The notes beneath the pieces are model-generated. The model had not been told where the DNA came from. It did no database searches and worked only from the letters and a program-made list of their open reading frames with translations. A DNA stretch of 64,000 bases. It comes from Verrucomicrobiota bacterium (GTDB taxonomy: Bacteria > Verrucomicrobiota > Verrucomicrobiia > Verrucomicrobiales > Akkermansiaceae). Shown here in pieces: positions 36,565-44,819 of the stretch (position 1 is its first letter; every line of letters starts with the position of its first letter). Made by a program: the position numbers and the translations under genes. The DNA lies in NCBI GenBank assembly GCA_030835305.1, contig JAURPJ010000038.1:1-64000 (forward strand). The letters are read 5' to 3'.

Positions 36565-36855
36565 ATGAATCAATTATTTGGGACGGATGGCATCCACGGA
36601 GTTGCCAACGAATACCCCATCACCCCCGAAGTGGCCCTCCGCATCGCCCGGGCTGTTGCCCGCGTCCTGCATGCCAAGGACAGGGGCCGCCACAAGGTTG
36701 CCATTGGCAAAGACACCCGCGCCTGTGGCTACATGCTCGAAACCACCCTCACCTCCGGCCTTGTCAGCGAAGGAGCCCGCTTCCTTCTTACCGGCCCTGT
36801 GCCCGCCTCAAAGTCTGCCCCATCGACCAACCCCGCAATCTGGCCCATTCAGTAA
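36565..36855 (+). pseudogene. glmM: Truncated phosphoglucosamine mutase (5' fragment)
   Basis: The ATG at 36565 starts MNQLFGTDGIHGVANEYPIT, the N-terminus of GlmM, and similarity continues to about residue 80 (VSEGARFLLTGPVP). The sequence then changes to unrelated residues and stops at a TAA at 36853-36855 inside the proposed attachment core. Conserved positions are changed: DGIRG is DGIHG and KDTRxSGY is KDTRACGY, which suggests relaxed selection. The catalytic serine loop and the rest of the protein are absent. GlmM makes glucosamine-1-phosphate for the cell wall and is normally essential, so another copy must exist elsewhere. Confidence 0.85.
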
Positions 36856-36856
36856 C
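36851..36856 (+). repeat. Proposed left attachment core (AGTAAC)
   Basis: AGTAAC here is repeated at 44732-44737. The two copies bracket the GpC-free tract: the last host GpC is at 36843-36844. Joining the ends at this core gives a GpC-free circle junction in which ATTCCA (right end) and TGGAAT (left end) form short inverted arms, as expected for a serine-integrase attP. Six bases is short, so this is an inference. Confidence 0.5.
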
Positions 36857-36936
36857 AGTGGAATAGATTTCGTGAGATAAAGTGTGAGGATGTAGATTAC
36901 GGTTTCGATATCATCGTTGAAACAGAGATCCTTACA

Positions 36937-37182
36937 TTGAAGGATCTCCCACAAGATCAATTAGATCGTCTCTTAATGATCGAGTCTCTGTATTCTCGGG
37001 GACTCACTTCAGTTCAGATATCTGACTTCCTTAATGAAAATCAGATCATGAGTCCAACTGGACTCAAATATACCGGGAAACTTGTTTGGATGACTAACTA
37101 CAAGTTTCAAAATCGAAAAAAACGGATCAAGGGTACCCGTGTATCTGTTGATCAGGATTATTTTTACGTCAAACAAAAGTAA
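36937..37182 (+). CDS. Small helix-turn-helix-like protein next to the recombinase
   Basis: The first possible start in the frame is a TTG at 36937 (read as Met-Lys-Asp-Leu-Pro). There is no ATG or GTG between the stop inside the attachment core and this codon. The 81-residue basic product contains IESLYSRGLTSVQISDFLNE, a helix-turn-helix-like stretch, followed by SPTGLKYTGKLVWMTNYKFQ. This resembles DNA-binding tails found with serine recombinases. It ends five bases before the ATG of the small recombinase and may be a recombination directionality factor or regulator. No alanine. Confidence 0.6.
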   Translation: MKDLPQDQLDRLLMIESLYSRGLTSVQISDFLNENQIMSPTGLKYTGKLVWMTNYKFQNRKKRIKGTRVSVDQDYFYVKQK

Positions 37183-37186
37183 GAGT

Positions 37187-37786
37187 ATGGAAAGAGTAGT
37201 TATCTATGGTCGAGTCTCAACTAGTGAACAGACTACTGAGAATCAGATCGGTTTTCTTAAAGAGATCGTTGAGAGAAATGGTTGGGAGTTGGTTGAATCC
37301 TATGTCGACGAAGGAATCTCTGGAACTAAGGGGAGAGAAAAACGACCTGAGTTTGATCGATTGTGTAAGGACATGATCCGAAGACGATTTAATCGGATTC
37401 TAGTATGGGATATCTCACGACTTGGTCGATCTCTCCAACATCTTGTTGAATTCTTAAATGACGTTCAATCAGTGAACTGTCATCTATACATCCATCAATC
37501 TGGATTAGATACTTCGACTCCTTCAGGTCGAATGATGTTCCAAATGGTTGGGGTGTTTTCCGAGTTCGAAAGGTCAATGATCTCTGAAAGAGTCAAATTG
37601 GGTTTAAAACGAGTAAAATCAAAAGGGACTATATTGGGTCGACCAAAGTCAATCGATGAAGATCTAAAAGAGAAAATCTGGATCCTTATTGATGAGGGGA
37701 ATTCCTATTCTCAGATCTCAAAGAAAACAGGGATCTCAAAAATGTCTATTTCTCGAGTCAACAAGGAAAGATTGGAGTCCGTTTAG
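37187..37786 (+). CDS. Small serine recombinase (resolvase/invertase type)
   Basis: I choose the ATG at 37187 (MERVVIYGRVSTSEQTTENQ). The 199-residue protein has the nucleophile in GRVSTSEQ (Ser at about residue 11), the catalytic-core strands SRLGRSLQHLVEFLNDVQ and TPSGRMMFQMVGVFSEFERS, the long E helix and a C-terminal helix-turn-helix (YSQISKKTGISKMSISRV). It should cut and rejoin DNA at short dyad sites, as in Hin or Tn3 resolvases. It may resolve multimers or invert a segment. The catalytic core is kept although the protein contains no alanine. Confidence 0.93.
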   Translation: MERVVIYGRVSTSEQTTENQIGFLKEIVERNGWELVESYVDEGISGTKGREKRPEFDRLCKDMIRRRFNRILVWDISRLGRSLQHLVEFLNDVQSVNCHLYIHQSGLDTSTPSGRMMFQMVGVFSEFERSMISERVKLGLKRVKSKGTILGRPKSIDEDLKEKIWILIDEGNSYSQISKKTGISKMSISRVNKERLESV

Positions 37787-37796
37787 GATCGTCCAA

Positions 37797-38537
37797 TCAC
37801 GGTGTCCTTTTAGGAAAGAGTCCTAAGGTTACGTTTCCCAAAAGAGTCCAACACCGTTTAAAGATCATTCTCTTCGATTTAAGAAAATCGTCTTTGATAT
37901 GTCCTCTCTCTAGATCGAAGTCTCTTTCATAATCTTCACCAAAGAATGAGTATGGAAGGATCCTTCTCTTCGAATTCGATCTAATCTCCTTACCAAAGTT
38001 AATCAGTATCTCGTTGGTGATAAAAGGGATTTCATTCTTCTCTGGATCTCCCTTCTTGAAGTTGTTCCAGACAAATTCAAAAAAGAGAAAATTCTCGTAT
38101 TCCAACTGTGGATTGAGATTCCGTTTTGAGTATGGAGAGAAATGAGGTCTGGTGTAATTCTTCAAGTCGAGTTCCTTTTTCTTCTCCTTGATGACCTGTT
38201 TAATCTCTTCAAGAAAACATTTCCCGTCTCTAAGTGGGATCGAGAGATCTAATGAGTATGGATCCGTTGAGAGAGTTTCAGGAGATACTTTCAATCTAGT
38301 CCATTCAAAGAGATGTGGTTTCTCCGTCCAGATGTCATGGAAGTCTCTTTTCCGATAATTTCCTAAGGGTCGGTAAAAGTCTTTCGATTTAATGAGGTTG
38401 TCTTTAAGTGTCGGATATTTCTTCGAGATCTCGTGGGATAATTTGAGATATTTGATCCAAGTCAAATAGAAGAGTTTCCCGTCATCCATTTTGTATTCTT
38501 GGAAATTCTTCCTCTTATTGAATCTGGACTTACTCAT
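37797..38537 (-). CDS. Hypothetical protein, element-encoded
   Basis: A 246-residue basic, Lys/Phe/Tyr-rich soluble protein. Visible features are an N-terminal helical part (YLTWIKYLKLSHEISKKYPT), a middle block LRDGKCFLEEIKQVIKEKKK and a C-terminal block ending DDFLKSKRMIFKRCWTLLGN followed by VTLGLFPKR. I do not recognise the family. It is the last gene of the leftward block and lies tail-to-tail with the small recombinase (10 bases apart). No alanine and no cysteine cluster beyond isolated residues. Confidence 0.7.
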   Translation of the reverse strand: MSKSRFNKRKNFQEYKMDDGKLFYLTWIKYLKLSHEISKKYPTLKDNLIKSKDFYRPLGNYRKRDFHDIWTEKPHLFEWTRLKVSPETLSTDPYSLDLSIPLRDGKCFLEEIKQVIKEKKKELDLKNYTRPHFSPYSKRNLNPQLEYENFLFFEFVWNNFKKGDPEKNEIPFITNEILINFGKEIRSNSKRRILPYSFFGEDYERDFDLERGHIKDDFLKSKRMIFKRCWTLLGNVTLGLFPKRTP

Positions 38538-38614
38538 TACTACTTCAGGGGATTACAGTCATTTAGGATCCTTCGAAGGTAAGTTCTATTCGAATCACCT
38601 CTACCCCATTTTCA

Positions 38615-39577
38615 TCATCGATTCAGGATATTCAGGTATTTTTGTTTGATGAGGTAGACAAGATAATCAATGTCGAACCCTTTAGTTACCGAGATTTTAT
38701 ATTTTCCACCTTTCACACCTGATTTGAATGTCCATGTCAATTCCTTCGAGATCTTCTTCGGATCATCAATGGTGAAAAAATTATCAAACTTCGAACCGTC
38801 CGGATGAATCTGACCCCGATTGAGGTCAATGATTAGTTTCGTTTTTCGAACATGAATGAAACAAACTTTCTTGTGGTTGTATCCAAGTGAGATGTATCTG
38901 GGGATGGACTCTATGTAAGTATCCTCAAATTCCAAAAGTCGTTCAGAGATCTCATTCCACAATTCTTTGATGTCTGAATTCGAATCTTTAAAATGATCAT
39001 CTATATTTACCGTCTTTAATTCGTTTGAGACGTCACTCATGACTCCCTGGGTCTTCGGATCCGAAATAGATTCGATACTTTCCTTAGAAGTGGAGTGATG
39101 TTGATCCAAGATGACTACTCCGTTTGAGAACCTCTTGATTTCCCAAAGTTCAAAAGGGAGGTTTTTAAAATTAACACTATCCTTTTGGTAGGAATTAAAA
39201 GAGGGGGAGATAAACACCACTCGAGATTGAGACCAGTCAACATCCTCGATCTTTAGGACACGATTGAAATACTGAGATAAAGTCAGGAGGAATTCTGACT
39301 TATTATTCAGAAGTAACTGAAGATAGGTGTACCCCTGATCGATAACAGAATAACTACATCCCCTCTTATACTCAATAATGACGAATGAATTAGTCTCTTC
39401 GTCGAAACAAAGGGTATCCAGACGGTATTTCTGGACGGTCAATTCCGACGAAATGAAGAGATATCCAAAGATCGTATCAATGTTCTTCTCGACTAACTCC
39501 TGGATATCCCTCTCCAGTTTAAAAGGTTCGTTTGAAACCTCCTTAAGGACTAGATCCTTTGTATTGAATAGTTTCAT
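38615..39577 (-). CDS. NucS-like PD-(D/E)XK nuclease with DUF5655-like tail
   Basis: A 320-residue protein. Residues about 15-160 match the DUF91/NucS-type nuclease fold (COG3586-like): RLDTLCFDEETNSFVIIEYK supplies Asp54, Glu69 and Lys71 of a PD-(D/E)XK site, followed by a helix with YTYLQLLLNNKSEF. The C-terminal part from about residue 210 (LEFEDTYIESIPRYISLGYN, FIHVRKTKLIIDLNRGQIHP) looks like DUF5655. NucS-like enzymes cut mismatched or branched DNA; members elsewhere are of unknown role. It is 40 bases from the HNH nuclease gene upstream and may work with it. No alanine. Confidence 0.85.
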   Translation of the reverse strand: MKLFNTKDLVLKEVSNEPFKLERDIQELVEKNIDTIFGYLFISSELTVQKYRLDTLCFDEETNSFVIIEYKRGCSYSVIDQGYTYLQLLLNNKSEFLLTLSQYFNRVLKIEDVDWSQSRVVFISPSFNSYQKDSVNFKNLPFELWEIKRFSNGVVILDQHHSTSKESIESISDPKTQGVMSDVSNELKTVNIDDHFKDSNSDIKELWNEISERLLEFEDTYIESIPRYISLGYNHKKVCFIHVRKTKLIIDLNRGQIHPDGSKFDNFFTIDDPKKISKELTWTFKSGVKGGKYKISVTKGFDIDYLVYLIKQKYLNILNR

Positions 39578-39616
39578 CTCATTCCTAGGTGAACCGAATC
39601 TACAACCATCCTTCCA

Positions 39617-40363
39617 TCAACGGTCTGGTGAAATAAGGGTCTTCAGTTCTGAAATGGTCAACCAAGGTTTCTTTCGGTGGATCATTCGGTGACAGTTTGA
39701 ACAAACCAATGATAAGTCGTCAAGTGAAGTTTTCTCACCCGGAGTAATCTCGGATATTGGTTTAATGTGGTGACACTCAATAAACCCATCTCCTAGTGGA
39801 CCGTATGTTTTCACAAAATCAAACCCACAACATTCACACACTAGGGATCCTGATTCCCTTCGAACTTTGTCTTTTTTCCGTTGAATGATCTTACGGTCCC
39901 GTTCCCTTGTCCTGTGTAGTTTGGTGAGAAGTCGACCTTCTTCTACTTCAAACTTATCATCGTCATCTAGATCAACTTCGACGACATGTTCTCCCGAACT
40001 AATCAATATCTGGATTGAAGATGAAATATTTCGGAGTTCGTCCCTATCGTTCTCAAATCTTCTGAATAGTTCCTCATCTAGTGTTGATCCTCCCTTTAAA
40101 CCGTCACCCTTATGTTGATCGTTGAAGTGGTGAAAATTCATCAACTTCATGTAAACACCGTTTGGATTCCGATATGTATCGGTTAGGTCATGACCGATCT
40201 TTTCGGTCAAAGATCTCAAGAGGTAACTTAGTTCTTTGATCTGATTGGAGGATTTTTCGGGGATTCTCGGATAATGTTCGAAGTAAAAGTCTAACGTGAG
40301 GATTATTTCATCTCGAGACCACTTCGGATTTCGTTTGATTTTAGGATCACCTTTTCCCGACAT
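39617..40363 (-). CDS. McrA-like HNH endonuclease
   Basis: A 248-residue protein with an N-terminal helical, sequence-reading-like region (PKWSRDEIILTLDFYFEHYP) and a C-terminal HNH domain. Zinc pairs are seen in SLVCECCGFDF (Cys176, Cys179) and LVCSNCHRMIH (Cys221, Cys224), with the catalytic ECHHIKPISE between them. The layout matches McrA-type and other predicted restriction HNH enzymes, which cut foreign or modified DNA. In this element it sits with a NucS-like nuclease, so a defence or counter-defence module is likely. No methyltransferase is present. No alanine. Confidence 0.92.
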   Translation of the reverse strand: MSGKGDPKIKRNPKWSRDEIILTLDFYFEHYPRIPEKSSNQIKELSYLLRSLTEKIGHDLTDTYRNPNGVYMKLMNFHHFNDQHKGDGLKGGSTLDEELFRRFENDRDELRNISSSIQILISSGEHVVEVDLDDDDKFEVEEGRLLTKLHRTRERDRKIIQRKKDKVRRESGSLVCECCGFDFVKTYGPLGDGFIECHHIKPISEITPGEKTSLDDLSLVCSNCHRMIHRKKPWLTISELKTLISPDR

Positions 40364-40399
40364 TACTAGATTTCAAAGAACCTAGTGACCCTACTAATC

Positions 40400-40501
40400 C
40401 CGTAACAAAATCAAATGTTTTTGTTACGGAAAAATTCGAGAGGAGAATCATTGATTTATCAATGGTTTCAGACACCTCCTTCCGAAAGGTTTTTGTTACG
40501 G
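40400..40501. repeat. Hairpin and direct repeats of GTTTTTGTTACGG
   Basis: GTTTTTGTTACGG occurs at 40417-40429 and 40489-40501. A near-exact reverse copy (CCGTAACAAAA) at 40400-40410 forms an 11-bp hairpin with 40419-40429. The region lies between the end of the small gene at 40496 and the HNH start at 40363. It could be a terminator, an operator for the nuclease genes or a binding site of the ribbon-helix-helix protein. Confidence 0.6.
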
Positions 40502-40750
40502 TTTGGAATTGAACCGTTTCATAAGTGAGAGGAGATTTTTGTCCTGTGTTCCTACCCCAATCCCTAATCCTGTAATGTAGGATAACAACTTGTTCTGTTG
40601 GGAGATCAGTTTGTTTTGTTCAATCGGATCCTTCTCCTGTTCGATTCGTTTAGAAAGTCCTCTGATTCTTAAAACTATGGTCCCGACAGTAAGTTTTACC
40701 CAAATTGGGTATCGTCGTCGTTCTGTGATGAATTCCTTAAATGTCAACAT
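40496..40750 (-). CDS. Small hypothetical protein downstream of the RHH gene
   Basis: I choose the ATG at 40750 (MLTFKEFITERRRYPIWVKL), 16 bases after the upstream gene ends, because a longer version would overlap that gene. The 84-residue product is basic and helical (NKLISQQNKLLSYITGLGIG and VGTQDKNLLSLMKRF). It resembles no family I know. Its position, directly after a ribbon-helix-helix protein, suggests a shared transcript. The stop codon lies within one copy of the GTTTTTGTTACGG repeat. No alanine. Confidence 0.65.
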   Translation of the reverse strand: MLTFKEFITERRRYPIWVKLTVGTIVLRIRGLSKRIEQEKDPIEQNKLISQQNKLLSYITGLGIGVGTQDKNLLSLMKRFNSKP

Positions 40751-40766
40751 TACCCCAAAGTTCTGA

Positions 40767-41042
40767 TTAATAGGAATCCTCCCAACGATATCCGTTAGGT
40801 GGTCTCGATGGATCCCATGGTCGACTCTCGACAATATCAGTCTCAGGTTCGTTATTCTTTTCAATAGTCTGGATCAAATCGTTAATCCGACCGTCCTCGT
40901 GAATGAGTTGATACTCTCTCCGACAGTACTCTTCGATCATTGTGTTTAAGATGGAGGTCCGTGTAACTCGTTTGAAGTTTACTAGTTTATCAAAGTTCTT
41001 TTTGAGATGGTTTGGAATATTGAAGTTAATAAGGGTCGTCAT
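40767..41042 (-). CDS. Ribbon-helix-helix (CopG/Arc-like) protein
   Basis: A 91-residue protein whose first 45 residues form the ribbon-helix-helix pattern: a short strand (MTTLINFNIPNHLKKNFDK) then TSILNTMIEEYCR as the second helix. The tail is acidic and Pro-rich (RPWDPSRPPNGYRWEDSY). Such proteins bind operators as dimers and often autoregulate plasmid copy number or nuclease genes. It could control the downstream HNH and NucS-like genes. No alanine. Confidence 0.82.
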   Translation of the reverse strand: MTTLINFNIPNHLKKNFDKLVNFKRVTRTSILNTMIEEYCRREYQLIHEDGRINDLIQTIEKNNEPETDIVESRPWDPSRPPNGYRWEDSY

Positions 41043-41104
41043 TATTGTATTTATTCGGTTGATAGGGATTTTCCTGGGGGTTCTTATTTTTTAATTTGGA
41101 TCTA

Positions 41105-41431
41105 CTAATTCATGAATTGTTCAAGGGACGAGATAGGTTCTTCATGTTTATCTCCCTCGTTAACCTTCAATTCCTTAATGAACATTCGGAAATAAAATAA
41201 TGGATTATCATCAAGAGGATCCTGTAGTTGTCTAAATCTTGTTTCTTTCACAAGGAGTTTAGACAGTCCTTTAAACTGATTAAAGGTGACAGGTCTTCCT
41301 CGGTTAATCTTTCTCTGAATCTCCTCCAAAATGGGTTTCATCCATATGTGGTCTTTTCTCAAGTACATCGAAATGTATTGGTTTAATTCATTTCTTCGTT
41401 TTGATTTAATCTGTTGAAATGTTGTTTTCAT
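41105..41431 (-). CDS. Small basic hypothetical protein
   Basis: A 108-residue basic protein with helical parts (KSKRRNELNQYISMYLRKDH, MKPILEEIQRKINRG, KGLSKLLVKETRFRQLQD). No family recognised. It may bind DNA because of its Arg/Lys content. It lies between the ribbon-helix-helix gene and the stable hairpin at 41484-41513, all on the minus strand. No alanine. Confidence 0.62.
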   Translation of the reverse strand: MKTTFQQIKSKRRNELNQYISMYLRKDHIWMKPILEEIQRKINRGRPVTFNQFKGLSKLLVKETRFRQLQDPLDDNPLFYFRMFIKELKVNEGDKHEEPISSLEQFMN

Positions 41432-41483
41432 AATCGGTCCTTGTGGAAGGTATTATGGTTTAGATGTTGATATAGAGGTGTAC

Positions 41484-41513
41484 TAAAGGAGAATTCTTCG
41501 GAATTCTCCTTTA
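41484..41513 (-). terminator. 13-bp perfect stem with TTCG loop
   Basis: 41484-41496 pairs perfectly with 41501-41513 around TTCG, giving a C(UUCG)G-type very stable loop on the plus strand. It lies 30 bases past the end of the candidate HUH gene. A second 10-bp stem (41527-41536 with 41551-41560) overlaps the 3' end of that gene. It is most likely a terminator or transcript-end stabiliser. Confidence 0.65.
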
Positions 41514-41542
41514 ACCACATTGAGGGACTGATGTTGGGAATT

Positions 41543-42043
41543 TTATCCAACAACATCAGTGATTTTAAGGTTCCCCCAATCTATGAAACAACTAACATTA
41601 GAACCTTTTGATTTACTCTTCAGTTGATAATCTAACCAACCTCGGTAATCGTAGATCTCCTTAACACAGATATTTTGATATCCATATTTGGTTTTCAACC
41701 AGGAGTCAGAAATCAGTTTCTCAAAAGTTACCAAATCAATATGATCCGGTCGTTGTAAGGTTAAGTGTATGTGGTTACGGATAAGATCATTACCCTCGAA
41801 AACAGGAATTACTGAAAGACGTTTGTCATATCGATTGAAAGAACTTCCATAGACAGACTTATTCAATCGATTCATAAAGTGACGGATATTCACCGAAAGG
41901 GATTCTTTATCCACCTTCGAACTGAATGACTTCCTAAACTGTCCCTCAATTCTTTGTTTTACTGTTAACGTAACTGATAAAGGATTGGGGATTCTTTTGG
42001 AAACCAACCATTCAAGGGTCTTTTCAATAATCTCTTTTTCCAT
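41543..42043 (-). CDS. Candidate HUH-type replication initiator
   Basis: A 166-residue protein in which three motifs occur in the order of HUH endonucleases. Motif I-like SVTLTVKQ (residues 23-30), motif II HIHLTLQRP (His91 and His93) and motif III GWLDYQLKSK (Tyr139 with Lys142) are visible. HUH enzymes nick one strand through a tyrosine to start rolling-circle replication or transfer. Iterons and palindromes lie directly upstream. The protein is short, and motif I is weak, so this is inference. It could instead be a related unknown phage-like protein. No alanine. Confidence 0.65.
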   Translation of the reverse strand: MEKEIIEKTLEWLVSKRIPNPLSVTLTVKQRIEGQFRKSFSSKVDKESLSVNIRHFMNRLNKSVYGSSFNRYDKRLSVIPVFEGNDLIRNHIHLTLQRPDHIDLVTFEKLISDSWLKTKYGYQNICVKEIYDYRGWLDYQLKSKSKGSNVSCFIDWGNLKITDVVG

Positions 42044-42227
42044 TGGTTCTATTTCTTCAATGTAACCTCTCTTCTCACACCATATTTGTATTTATCTGAT
42101 ATTTATCTGATATTTATCATTAATTGTAATTATTTTATGTTTTTCTAGTAATTAGGATGTACAGAAGTAACAAAGTATAATACGATACATCATCGATGAT
42201 GTAGATTTCGGTTTAACCGAGTCCGTC
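42044..42227. other. Candidate replication origin region
   Basis: Upstream of the HUH-like gene are 11-bp tandem units (ATTTATCTGAT at 42090-42100 and 42101-42111, then a partial unit at 42112-42120). An AT-rich stretch, an 18-bp palindrome TACATCATCGATGATGTA (42186-42203) and a dyad TCGGTTTAACCGA (42208-42220) follow. Helical-period iterons next to an initiator gene are typical of replication origins. No nick site can be defined by eye. Confidence 0.5.
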
Positions 42228-42776
42228 TTATTCTGTCTCTGGATACATATCCAAATCATCGTAAAAACTTATCTTTGGGGTCCGAAGGAATTCCGGATTG
42301 TCACTATATGAGGGTCCCCAATCTCTCTCTTCTTCCTTAATCTCACCACCTTCAACCCCTTCGGTCACTCTTTCATATAACTCCTTGTATTCTCTTGAAT
42401 TCGGATCTCCCAAACACAGGTGTAAAAGGATGAAATATCGATTTACGACCCAATCTGTCTCAACATCCCATTCAACTTTCGAAGTTGGGTTCAAATATTT
42501 GTTTATCCAATAATCTACATCAATGACACCCTTTACGATTTCACGTACTTTGGGATCATCTTGAAAAATCTTATATCGTTGGATAAGATCAAATACACCA
42601 TTAATTACAAAGTCGTATTTAACAACCCCTGAAGGGTTCCATTTTTTAAATGGTTCTAGATCAAAATCATTGGGATGATCGATCTTCTCCTTCGTTATCA
42701 TCTGGACAAAATAATTCTCGGTTTCATTATTAGTTTTGTGTTTCTTTTTATCGGTATTTGTTTTTCTGTTTTTCAT
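42228..42776 (-). CDS. Acidic hypothetical protein, first gene of the leftward block
   Basis: A 182-residue protein with a basic, Asn/Lys-rich start (MKNRKTNTDKKKHKTNNETE) and an acidic remainder (GVEGGEIKEEERDWGPSYSD). I do not recognise a family. It starts 177 bases before the integrase gene, on the opposite strand, so the gap at 42777-42953 is a divergent promoter region. Its stop is followed by the palindromes of the putative origin. No alanine. Confidence 0.62.
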   Translation of the reverse strand: MKNRKTNTDKKKHKTNNETENYFVQMITKEKIDHPNDFDLEPFKKWNPSGVVKYDFVINGVFDLIQRYKIFQDDPKVREIVKGVIDVDYWINKYLNPTSKVEWDVETDWVVNRYFILLHLCLGDPNSREYKELYERVTEGVEGGEIKEEERDWGPSYSDNPEFLRTPKISFYDDLDMYPETE

Positions 42777-42842
42777 ATGTTTTTGTGATCACTTTTATTA
42801 TTTGATCGTGTCTATTGTATCTGAAAATCACACGATGTGGAT

Positions 42843-42918
42843 GGGTCATCGACTCCCAAAGTTGATGACCCTTAATTCTTAATTATGGTGGGATATCGAC
42901 TCCCAAAGTTGGTGTCCC
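42843..42918 (+). promoter_or_regulatory. Two tandem structure-conserved hairpins upstream of the integrase
   Basis: Two 29-base units lie at 42843-42871 and 42890-42918. Both have the same 5-base loop (CCCAA) and a 12-bp stem. The second differs at three stem positions and keeps pairing through G-U pairs on the plus-strand RNA (T opposite G); on the minus strand these would be A-C mismatches. This indicates an RNA structure in the integrase leader, 35 bases before the ATG at 42954. It may bind a regulator or the integrase itself. Confidence 0.65.
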
Positions 42919-42953
42919 ATTTCAAAACACATTGATCCTGATATCCTTTCAAT

Positions 42954-44684
42954 ATGAAGGATCTCTCTCGAATTAACTCATCGATAATCCGAAAAAATAA
43001 CGATGTACATCTAGGGGAAGATTTAATAGAAAATCAGATCACAGAATACTTACACATCTACACTCGGGTATCCACTTCTCATCAGGAAGAAGATGGAACG
43101 AGTCTAGAATCCCAACTCGAATTGGGTATCGAAAGATCGAAGAAAATTGGTCTTAAATATAAGATTTGGAATGAGGGAGGGAAATCTAGTTCTAAGGACG
43201 ATCTCAGTAATCGTCCAGTCCTCACGGAATTACTCAGTCTTATTGATGAAGGTGAAGTTCAACATCTTTATGTCTACAACACGGATAGACTCTCACGTAA
43301 CTTAAATACGTGGGGTATGATTAGATTTAAACTAATCAAGAACAATGTCATCCTCCATACTCCCACAGGTCCACTCCCCCTATCGGATCCTACAACGAAT
43401 CTACTCATTGGAGTTTTAACAGAGATTTCTCAATACGAGAATCAGATCAGAACAGAACGATTTCGTCAGGGTAAACTGAAACGAATAAAACAAGGTGGAT
43501 GGATTGGGGGTCCTCCCCCATTTGGATACTCGATTGAAAAAAGTAAACTGGTTCCAAATAAAGAAGAACAGAAATGGGTTCGGTTTATTTTTGAGTGTTA
43601 TAAAGGGGGTGATTCACTTGATGACATTCGATCGAAACTGTTGAAGAACTCCGTCCAAACTCGTCGAGGGAATCCCGTTTGGTGTCACAGTTCGATTGAA
43701 AAACTTTTGACCAACACTCACTACGGAGGACATTTTTCTTATACCGATAAGAAATCCGATGAAACGATCAGACTTACGTGTCCAAGGTTGTTACCGTCTT
43801 CATTGATCAAGTCAGTCAGGGATATCCGAAACTCCAGATCATATGGTAAACGTGGAAATAGGAGGACAAAGACTAGTAATCAAAAATACACCTATCTTCT
43901 TACTGAACTCCTCGTTTGTGGTCATTGTGGATCATTCTATGGTGGTAATTACAAGAAGACTCAGACTTCGTATTACTCGTGTCGTCAGAAAACAGAGAAG
44001 TTTCGTACTAGATTTACCGATCGTCATGTCGTCTGTGGTTCAAATAGAAATATCAGGATCGACAGAACTGATGAAATCGTTTGGGAAACAGTCGTCGATG
44101 TAATCTCCAAATCTCATCTTTTTAAGGAAGATGTAAAAAATGAACTCCTTGGAAAGACTTCCGTAAGGAAGTCACAAAGTGAGATCAAAAGATCACAAAA
44201 CAAACTAAGGAAACTTAAAAAGGAGATCGATGAGGTTACTCACTCTATTATCAACTTTGAAACCTCGGTCTTAATTGGTAATCGGGATAAGATTGAAGGT
44301 AAGAAAATCGTGAAGAATCTCGAGATACATAGGGAGACTTTGGAGTCACAAGTTGAGGAAATTAACCAGTCTATTTTGGAGGAAGAGAAACAGAAAACTT
44401 GGATTGATTGGGTAAAGGAATTCGGATCTCGAATTGAAAAGATCAAGGATCCTGACTTCTCAATAGAGGATCGTAAGAGTGTTATCAAAGGGGTGGTAAA
44501 TCAAATCGTGGTTTCAAATAAGGATGTTCGTAAACATGAACTTAAGATTGAGTTCAGACTTCCCTACGTTGGTGATTCCATTGAATTCAAGGATCAGAAA
44601 AAGAAGTCCAAGGGTTACAAAGTTAAAAATGGTCGGAAGATCAAAGGAGTCATCGTTGATTTGTTAAAAAAAACAAAGGTGTGA
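42954..44684 (+). CDS. Large serine integrase
   Basis: A 576-residue serine recombinase. The catalytic domain starts near residue 34, with the nucleophile in YTRVSTSHQEEDGTSLESQL (Ser40), and TDRLSRNLNTWGMIRFK behind it. A recombinase domain (GWIGGPPPFGYSIEKSK) follows, then a zinc ribbon with LLVCGHCGSFYGGNYK and SYYSCRQK, and a coiled coil (about 400-490, KSQSEIKRSQNKLRKLKKEI). This is the usual order of phage-type large serine integrases, which insert a circular element at a short core. It lies at the element's right end, with the stop about 50 bases from the proposed attR core. No alanine, which is exceptional for this length. Confidence 0.95.
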   Translation: MKDLSRINSSIIRKNNDVHLGEDLIENQITEYLHIYTRVSTSHQEEDGTSLESQLELGIERSKKIGLKYKIWNEGGKSSSKDDLSNRPVLTELLSLIDEGEVQHLYVYNTDRLSRNLNTWGMIRFKLIKNNVILHTPTGPLPLSDPTTNLLIGVLTEISQYENQIRTERFRQGKLKRIKQGGWIGGPPPFGYSIEKSKLVPNKEEQKWVRFIFECYKGGDSLDDIRSKLLKNSVQTRRGNPVWCHSSIEKLLTNTHYGGHFSYTDKKSDETIRLTCPRLLPSSLIKSVRDIRNSRSYGKRGNRRTKTSNQKYTYLLTELLVCGHCGSFYGGNYKKTQTSYYSCRQKTEKFRTRFTDRHVVCGSNRNIRIDRTDEIVWETVVDVISKSHLFKEDVKNELLGKTSVRKSQSEIKRSQNKLRKLKKEIDEVTHSIINFETSVLIGNRDKIEGKKIVKNLEIHRETLESQVEEINQSILEEEKQKTWIDWVKEFGSRIEKIKDPDFSIEDRKSVIKGVVNQIVVSNKDVRKHELKIEFRLPYVGDSIEFKDQKKKSKGYKVKNGRKIKGVIVDLLKKTKV

Positions 44685-44731
44685 AAGAGATGAATAATAA
44701 TTATCTAACGAAATTCATTCCATCACCGTCG

Positions 44732-44737
44732 AGTAAC
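44732..44737 (+). repeat. Proposed right attachment core (AGTAAC)
   Basis: Second copy of AGTAAC, 48 bases after the integrase stop. The first host GpC follows at 44739-44740. The outer flanks, 36850 and 44738, join to a host sequence that keeps an open reading frame across the junction (LAHSVTAKKEERISPDYLPF), which I do not recognise. The 78 bases after this copy hold no clear gene. Confidence 0.5.
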
Positions 44738-44819
44738 CGCCAAGAAAGAGGAAAGAATATCACCAGACTACCTCCCCTTCACTCTCGACGCCCTGGAGTG
44801 CGTCGGTCCGTGTTTCGCC

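Follow-up and report, generated by a model that had tools for sequence, protein, structure and literature searches.

Several described systems resemble the locus considered here. The staphylococcal cassette chromosome (SCC) is moved by a large serine recombinase (CcrA/B/C), uses the 3' end of a conserved gene (rlmH) and carries defence cargo. Tn7 and its relatives use the conserved 3' end of glmS, and CviJI from a chlorella virus is an RGCY endonuclease with a relaxed activity at GC. According to a study on plasmids, these avoid short restriction targets, and small and broad-host-range plasmids do so more strongly (Shaw, Rocha and MacLean, 2023, PMC10359461). The DNA analysed here, called the window, is a stretch of 64,000 nucleotides from a Verrucomicrobiota bacterium of the Akkermansiaceae (assembly GCA_030835305.1, contig JAURPJ010000038.1, positions 1-64,000, forward strand). 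It contains an integrative element, located at the 3' end of glmS and encoding a predicted large serine recombinase, in which the dinucleotide GpC is completely absent.

The element shares the large serine recombinase, the target at the 3' end of a conserved gene and the defence cargo with SCC, but its target is glmS and not rlmH, and it has a likely HUH Rep gene. Against the curated SCC cut-offs its recombinase scores 94.5 of 900 bits (CcrB), 51.9 of 700 (CcrA) and 42.6 of 900 (CcrC), so that neither recombinase nor target places it among the SCC elements. The glmS 3' end is also the site of Tn7; however, the element has a serine recombinase and inserts within the final glmS codons, substituting its own in frame, and no TnsA-E-type or other transposase domain was found in the ten element proteins scanned with Pfam. 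RGCY, the site of CviJI, is the rule displayed by one related element (L019, see below), and the rules of all other GpC-poor relatives but L021 include it, while to our knowledge the sites VGCB and BGCV fall outside the relaxed order of this enzyme. Like the plasmids of PMC10359461, the element is small mobile DNA that has lost short palindromic targets. The plasmid targets described there are of 4-6 bp and under-represented by degree, whereas the element lacks a whole dinucleotide over 7.9 kb and its relatives lack degenerate GC-centred sets. Among the top matches of a literature search that covered few subscription papers or preprints, none described a mobile element free of a dinucleotide or of alanine.

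The original prediction described a 7.9-kb mobile element without GpC between a GC at 36843-36844 and one at 44739-44740, and a dinucleotide count over the whole window gives exactly these bounds, with no GpC in between. The longest GC gap in the window is 7,896 bases, compared with 122 bases for the second longest and 532 bases for the longest gap of any other dinucleotide (TA). For positions 36857-44737 one would expect 283 GpC from base composition; for the element the flanking dinucleotides give an expectation of 282 (Poisson P ~3e-123 for none). Chance had already been excluded in the original prediction from an expectation of about 300. Other dinucleotides remain frequent in the same interval, including the CpG, GG and CC singled out earlier: CG occurs 271 times (observed/expected, o/e, 0.96), and the o/e values of GG, CC, GA and TC are 1.29, 1.14, 1.44 and 1.66, while GT is at and AC below expectation. 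In the host DNA of the window the o/e of GC is 0.92 and 0.95. With 0/282 GpC in the element and 3618/3896 in the host, the short target is depleted in the element and not in the host.

The absence extends over coding DNA as well as gaps, as had also been claimed. About 29 GpC are expected in the 925 non-coding bases and none is found, and all ten NGCN contexts are empty. Two codon-preserving null models, a check suggested together with the original prediction, both give many GpC where none is observed: 212-272 when the element proteins are recoded with the codon usage of five host open reading frames (200 runs), and 53-89 when the element's own synonymous codons are shuffled within each protein (500 runs). 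As GCN codons are impossible without GpC, none of the 11 predicted proteins contains alanine. Of the single substitutions possible in the element, 2,982 of 23,610 (12.6%) would create a GpC; since none is seen, purging is probably very recent or continuing, and the zero would leave room for fewer than about 24 neutral changes after the most recent purge.

The original prediction asked whether the missing dinucleotide is always the same. Among the elements with related recombinases, most of them also located at glmS, it is not; they lack GGCC, CGCG, RGCY, VGCB or BGCV, or show no GC rule. The o/e of GpC is 0.00 in the window element, 0.17 in contig F, 0.20 in L005 and L021, 0.24 in L006, 0.28 in L019, 0.47 in L014, 0.72 in L076, 0.82 in L004, 0.86 in L039, 0.90 in L018 and 0.97-1.30 in L040-L042, L015 and L017; here and below L014, L015, L017, L018, L019, L021 and L076 are taken as (nearly) whole contigs, host flanks included. 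The residual GpC of the relatives is structured by the bases flanking GC. A rule was defined as a flank set S, read as S-GC-S', with observed counts not above 0.12 of expected for the whole set and 0.25 per context, at least 8 expected and P < 1e-4. The scan was made without L007 (a near copy of L006), L016 (part of L076), L002 (1.95 kb), L003 (mostly host), L020 (4.4 kb), and L022 and L023 (weak matches).

Fractions at sites are observed/expected counts. The RGCY rule is displayed by L019 (0/117) and L005 (8/82), VGCB by L014 (6/162), L076 (32/330), L006 (3/151) and F (13/233), and BGCV by L021 (0/99), F (29/280) and L005 (13/165). The union of VGCB and BGCV is seen in F, and NGCN in the window element only (0/282). 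Single palindromes are absent in other elements, GGCC in L039 (0/47) and L017 (0/25), and CGCG in L041 (0/12) and L042 (0/11). A degenerate GC-centred rule is thus found in eight of 16 elements, although L005, L006 and F, being close kin, do not count as independent cases. No such rule was found in 12 other loci, three of which lack GGCC and two of these also CTAG, or in six host blocks, one of which lacks CTAG. These 12 loci comprise L003 and L020 of the recombinase family, the distant recombinase matches L022 and L023, and loci found by searches with two other element proteins, PDC-S18 and the small resolvase. RGCY is low, though not absent, in L004 and L018. The 12-kb contig of L021, a distant relative, is a rich record of avoided sites, as CATG (0/46) and GATC (0/54) are missing as well, the o/e of CpG is 0.24 and CpG sets are near-absent. 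Other near-absent sites are CCGG in L017, ACGT and TCGA in L018, CTAG in L019, which some host DNA also contains at low frequency, and GTAC in L040 and its host. For L004 and L015 the criterion gives no site at all.

The avoided words are self-complementary and the strands mostly alike, which is trivial for bare GC but informative in the relatives. On the sense strands of nine loci the pairs AGCC/GGCT, AGCG/CGCT and CGCC/GGCG mostly fall together, as double-stranded palindromic recognition predicts. In the window element no palindrome class with a CG, AT or TA core is depleted by the criterion used, which favours one GC-reading agent or a GC-centred set. Among 432 odd-length and 6-bp degenerate palindromes four pass the depletion cut, all of them AATT- or AAWTT-like. 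MAATTK (AATT between A/C and T/G) is low in 36851-44720, with 3 against 22.6 expected, and AAATTT is absent where 9.8 are expected, while GAATTC occurs 12 times; MAATTK is perhaps a second avoided site.

The edges of the GpC-free tract had been equated with the ends of the element. They do coincide within 18 bases, but the ends are better placed at the CATTC repeats (Table 1) than at 36857 and 44737, and the 6 and 18 GpC-free bases beyond them are presumably due to chance. An earlier candidate for the attachment core, AGTAAC, was dropped in favour of CATTC. When the flanks are joined at CATTC they read LKVCPIDQPRNLAHSITVE*, an intact GlmS C-terminus, so that the empty site can be restored; in the integrated state the element provides VTVE* in frame for glmS. 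The last 22 positions of TIGR01135 (586-607) align to 36798-36863 (E 0.008), and because the left flank closes with codons of glmS, a reading of it as glmM alone was rejected. The host GlmS C-terminus (PRNLAK/HSVTVE) is present at 10 of the 18 loci scanned and some match of this kind at 13, while none was found in L003, L015, L017, L018 and L042. The element is present in a single copy in its own genome. Two of the related contigs, L076 and L019, hold two large recombinase genes each, one of those in L019 being cut at the contig end, and L076 contains three glmS-end copies, as if elements were stacked at one site.

Table 1. The GpC-free tract, the ends of the element and its predicted genes, in window positions.
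Feature	Position	Strand	Basis
Tract without any GpC	36845..44738	none	dinucleotide count
Integrative element, 7,870 bp, one CATTC copy counted at the right end	36851..44720	none	sequence
Left direct repeat CATTC, likely crossover region (crossover point inferred)	36846..36850	none	sequence
Right direct repeat CATTC	44716..44720	none	sequence
glmS end: host codons to 36850 (..PRNLAHS), then VTVE* from the element	36798..36866	+	TIGR01135
Displaced original host glmS end (..SITVE*)	44721..44736	+	sequence
Backbone gene, 81 aa, common to L005, L006, L004 and L039	36937..37182	+	sequence comparison
Small serine resolvase/invertase, 199 aa, 84% identity to L005	37187..37786	+	PF00239, E 2e-42
Cargo, 246 aa, no family found in profile searches	37797..38537	-	
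Cargo, candidate phage-defence protein PDC-S18 with weak NucS-like nuclease and DUF5655 matches	38615..39577	-	PADLOC, E 5e-96
Cargo, HNH endonuclease, C-terminal part McrA-like (6ghc, E 2e-4)	39617..40363	-	PF01844, E 5e-10
Backbone gene, part shared with relatives 83 aa, start uncertain, overlaps next gene	40496..40864	-	
Backbone gene, Arc/CopG-like regulator, weak match	40767..41042	-	PHROG, E 0.0085
Backbone gene, 108 aa	41105..41431	-	sequence comparison
Backbone gene, likely HUH rolling-circle replication protein	41543..42043	-	PF23343, E 0.011
182-aa gene	42228..42776	-	Pfam scan
Large serine recombinase, 576 aa, alanine-free	42954..44684	+	PF00239, PF07508 and PF13408 over cut-off

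The Pfam matches of the large recombinase correspond to resolvase, recombinase and zinc-ribbon domains. For PDC-S18, a term not found in the literature search, the PADLOC model spans residues 1-314, and the NucS-like and DUF5655 matches are weak, just below the Pfam cut-off. Its predicted fold (mean predicted local distance difference test score, pLDDT, 86.5) partly resembles EndoMS/NucS (E 4e-5, template modeling score 0.24 of the query). PF23343 matches the L005 homologue of the HUH gene with E 2.5e-4, and both matches fall short of the curated cut-off. The backbone is common to the viral-collection contigs L005, L006 and F, which differ in cargo. In L005 (2833-4821) the cargo includes a 662-aa fusion of a QueC/asparagine-synthase-like part and a C5 DNA methylase, possibly a new modification or defence enzyme, with homologues in L006 and F, and F cargo also includes a type I methylase. 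The GGCC-free element of L039 (9205-16209) encodes a C5 methylase (Druantia-type model) and a 1049-aa protein.

In three of the four elements analysed in this way, GpC is scarcer in the backbone than in the private cargo. The o/e of GpC in backbone, shared cargo and private cargo is 0.05, 0.16 and 0.74 in L005 and 0.11, 0.18 and 0.64 in L006, while in L039 it is 0.72 in the backbone and 0.92 in the cargo. From the shared cargo of L005 and L006 nearly all contexts are gone except AGCA/TGCT (20/26.6 and 22/25.6), which corresponds to the union of VGCB and BGCV. In the private cargo of L006 VGCB (1/30.3) is the only rule and the xGCA contexts are kept (44/40), and in that of L005 no rule is depleted. 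The genes thus seem to carry an imprint of the site rules they have passed through.

Alanine-free proteins are also found outside the window. Among the best 120 homologues of each of three element proteins (of 855, 3831 and 1868 matches), 28 of the recombinases, 89 of the PDC-S18 proteins and 18 of the HNH proteins are alanine-free, and 25, 17 and 28 more have 1-3 alanines; the search ranks by word matches and is therefore biased towards alanine-free proteins when the query itself has no alanine. Two of the alanine-free matches, P0060 and P0216, carry the name Flavobacteriaceae. In a quick tree of 117 recombinases, which omits three of the 120 (500 aa or shorter), the alanine-free label, set against the sequences with 1-3 alanines, needs seven changes, of which well-supported branches force at least six; the 66 sequences with more alanines were not counted. 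Extreme GpC loss therefore seems to recur, as judged from the proteins. At the DNA level a second fully GpC-free locus was not found among the genomes and collections searched. The recombinase profile matches 32 of 288 genomes of the phylum at E <=1e-30 and five of 384 genomes of the class at E <=1e-80, own genome included, and the four strong relatives have GpC o/e of 0.87-1.13. The PDC-S18 profile matches 15 of 387 phylum genomes, again with the own genome included, 15 other loci (2-4 kb each) being GpC-normal. Among 97 relatives PDC-S18, and among 384 class genomes the small resolvase, is found in the own genome only. Recombinase and PDC-S18 matches in plasmid and phage collections were all below 60% identity, and P0034, from the alanine-free recombinase and PDC-S18 clusters, was not found in the viral contigs.

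The graded rules among the relatives point to the avoidance of restriction sites, which is an established form of selection. The original prediction considered the cause a new question; the pattern fits this known phenomenon, while a comparable strength was not found reported, and what is new is the extension to a whole dinucleotide. We consider it probable, at about 0.72, that restriction-type endonucleases with GC-centred sites, whose presence we infer in recipient cells or resident elements, have destroyed the copies that carried GpC. The element would move as unprotected double-stranded DNA and meet such nucleases each time, copies with sites would be cut and the sites thereby lost, and a nuclease or a set of nucleases jointly reading bare GC would leave nothing to cut. 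New cargo would enter rich in GpC and be purged over time. The nucleases would most likely belong to recipient cells or resident competing elements, whose own GC sites are protected by modification. The relatives with narrower missing sets look as if they were earlier steps of the same process. What favours restriction is that the zero is exact, that the losses follow flank rules and are symmetric between strands, that non-coding DNA is affected too, and that some elements carry methylase and defence-candidate cargo.

Several observations weigh against this explanation. No nuclease or methyltransferase specific to bare GC came to light, and the host draft (96.9% complete) has no match to the C5 methylase family PF00145 at E <=0.001, other methylase types not having been searched. 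We know of no restriction enzymes with VGCB or BGCV as sites. AGCA/TGCT, which lies outside both of these rules, is nevertheless empty in the window element (0/49), which calls for either a further rule or a genuine 2-bp reader. The window element shows no avoidance of the palindromes GATC, TCGA and CTAG and partial avoidance of CCGG (5/15) and GTAC (9/23); many ordinary enzymes thus do not explain the loss of GpC. A simple age gradient does not apply to F, where the o/e is 0.12 in private cargo, 0.19 in the backbone and 0.24 in shared cargo. By the criterion used, L040, L004, L015 and L018 show no GC rule, and the thresholds were set after the pattern had been seen. Finally, some reverse-complement pairs differ, AGCA (3/43) and TGCT (14/37) in L021, and AGCG (10/14) and CGCT (2/11) in L019.

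The nuclease could instead be encoded by the element, with PDC-S18 or the HNH protein as a weapon that cuts GpC DNA and spares its owner. Indeed, the only fully GpC-free element seen as DNA encodes both, PDC-S18 has the highest share of alanine-free homologues of the three proteins compared (see above), and its model in part matches NucS/EndoMS. We nevertheless regard this as unlikely, since homologues of the two were not found in L005, L006 and F, which are all strongly GpC-poor, 14 of the best 120 PDC-S18 homologues have more than three alanines and distant ones lie in GpC-normal DNA, and the host chromosome is full of GpC. Mutational loss, in which methylated GpC cytosines are deaminated to give GpT/ApC, would account for the finding that GpC in the recombinase genes of L039-L042 corresponds, at 100 of 392 sites, to GT or AC in the window element, compared with 16 of 204 when the GpC-normal L041 is the target, and that the window resolvase has GT or AC at 8 of 14 positions where its relatives retain GpC. 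However, single transitions and transversions at lost GpC are 100:123, near those at CpG (73:104) in the same comparison, and the spectra show no clear deamination signature. GA and TC rather than GT and AC are in excess in the element, and decay would yield neither an exact zero nor the flank rules RGCY, VGCB and BGCV. Methylation followed by deamination therefore fits less well than restriction and is very improbable as the cause, although it may contribute.

A cause at the level of protein or RNA, i.e., avoidance of alanine or an mRNA-cutting enzyme that reads GC, would agree with the alanine-free proteins and with the few reverse-complement pairs that differ on the sense strands (in L021 and L019). 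Very little credence is given to it, because the non-coding bases (29 expected) and the codon junctions (53-89 expected) are GpC-free as well and most reverse-complement pairs are avoided equally on the sense strands, although an RNase with a self-complementary pattern is conceivable. The original prediction named an assembly or synthetic artefact as a possible refutation. To the left of the element (36577-36866) glmM is cut after approximately 77 codons and followed directly by the last glmS codons, with the junction about 44 bases from the element, and this may be a mis-join; complete copies of glmM or glmS were not found elsewhere in the draft genome, and the junction is either such a mis-join or a deletion of two usually essential genes. 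For the element itself an artefact is extremely improbable, as clusters at 90% identity place the recombinase on five and PDC-S18 on 12 contigs, and GpC-poor relatives in other collections have the same backbone and site.

Within the restriction explanation a more far-reaching suggestion can be made, though only tentatively, as it is more doubtful than the explanation itself. A widespread restriction system may read bare GC, which would be the shortest conceivable restriction site, and the glmS-inserting family may answer it by the total absence of GC and of alanine. The elements may themselves be the source, with glmS residents using GC-cutting systems of their own to keep out arriving siblings, and the ladder from GGCC through RGCY and VGCB/BGCV to GC would then be the trace of an arms race among family members.

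Restriction avoidance usually takes the form of a statistical deficit, while here it is absolute, acts at the level of a dinucleotide and alters the proteome by removing alanine. If the restriction explanation is true, the sequences of such elements could by themselves reveal restriction specificities, the relatives being a readable record of cut sites, and the GpC count could be used as a clock for the time since the last passage. Naturally alanine-free enzymes are also relevant to protein design. An enzyme that cuts at 2 bp, or several GC-centred cutters acting together, would represent a novel kind of barrier to gene transfer and be of practical use as an enzyme.

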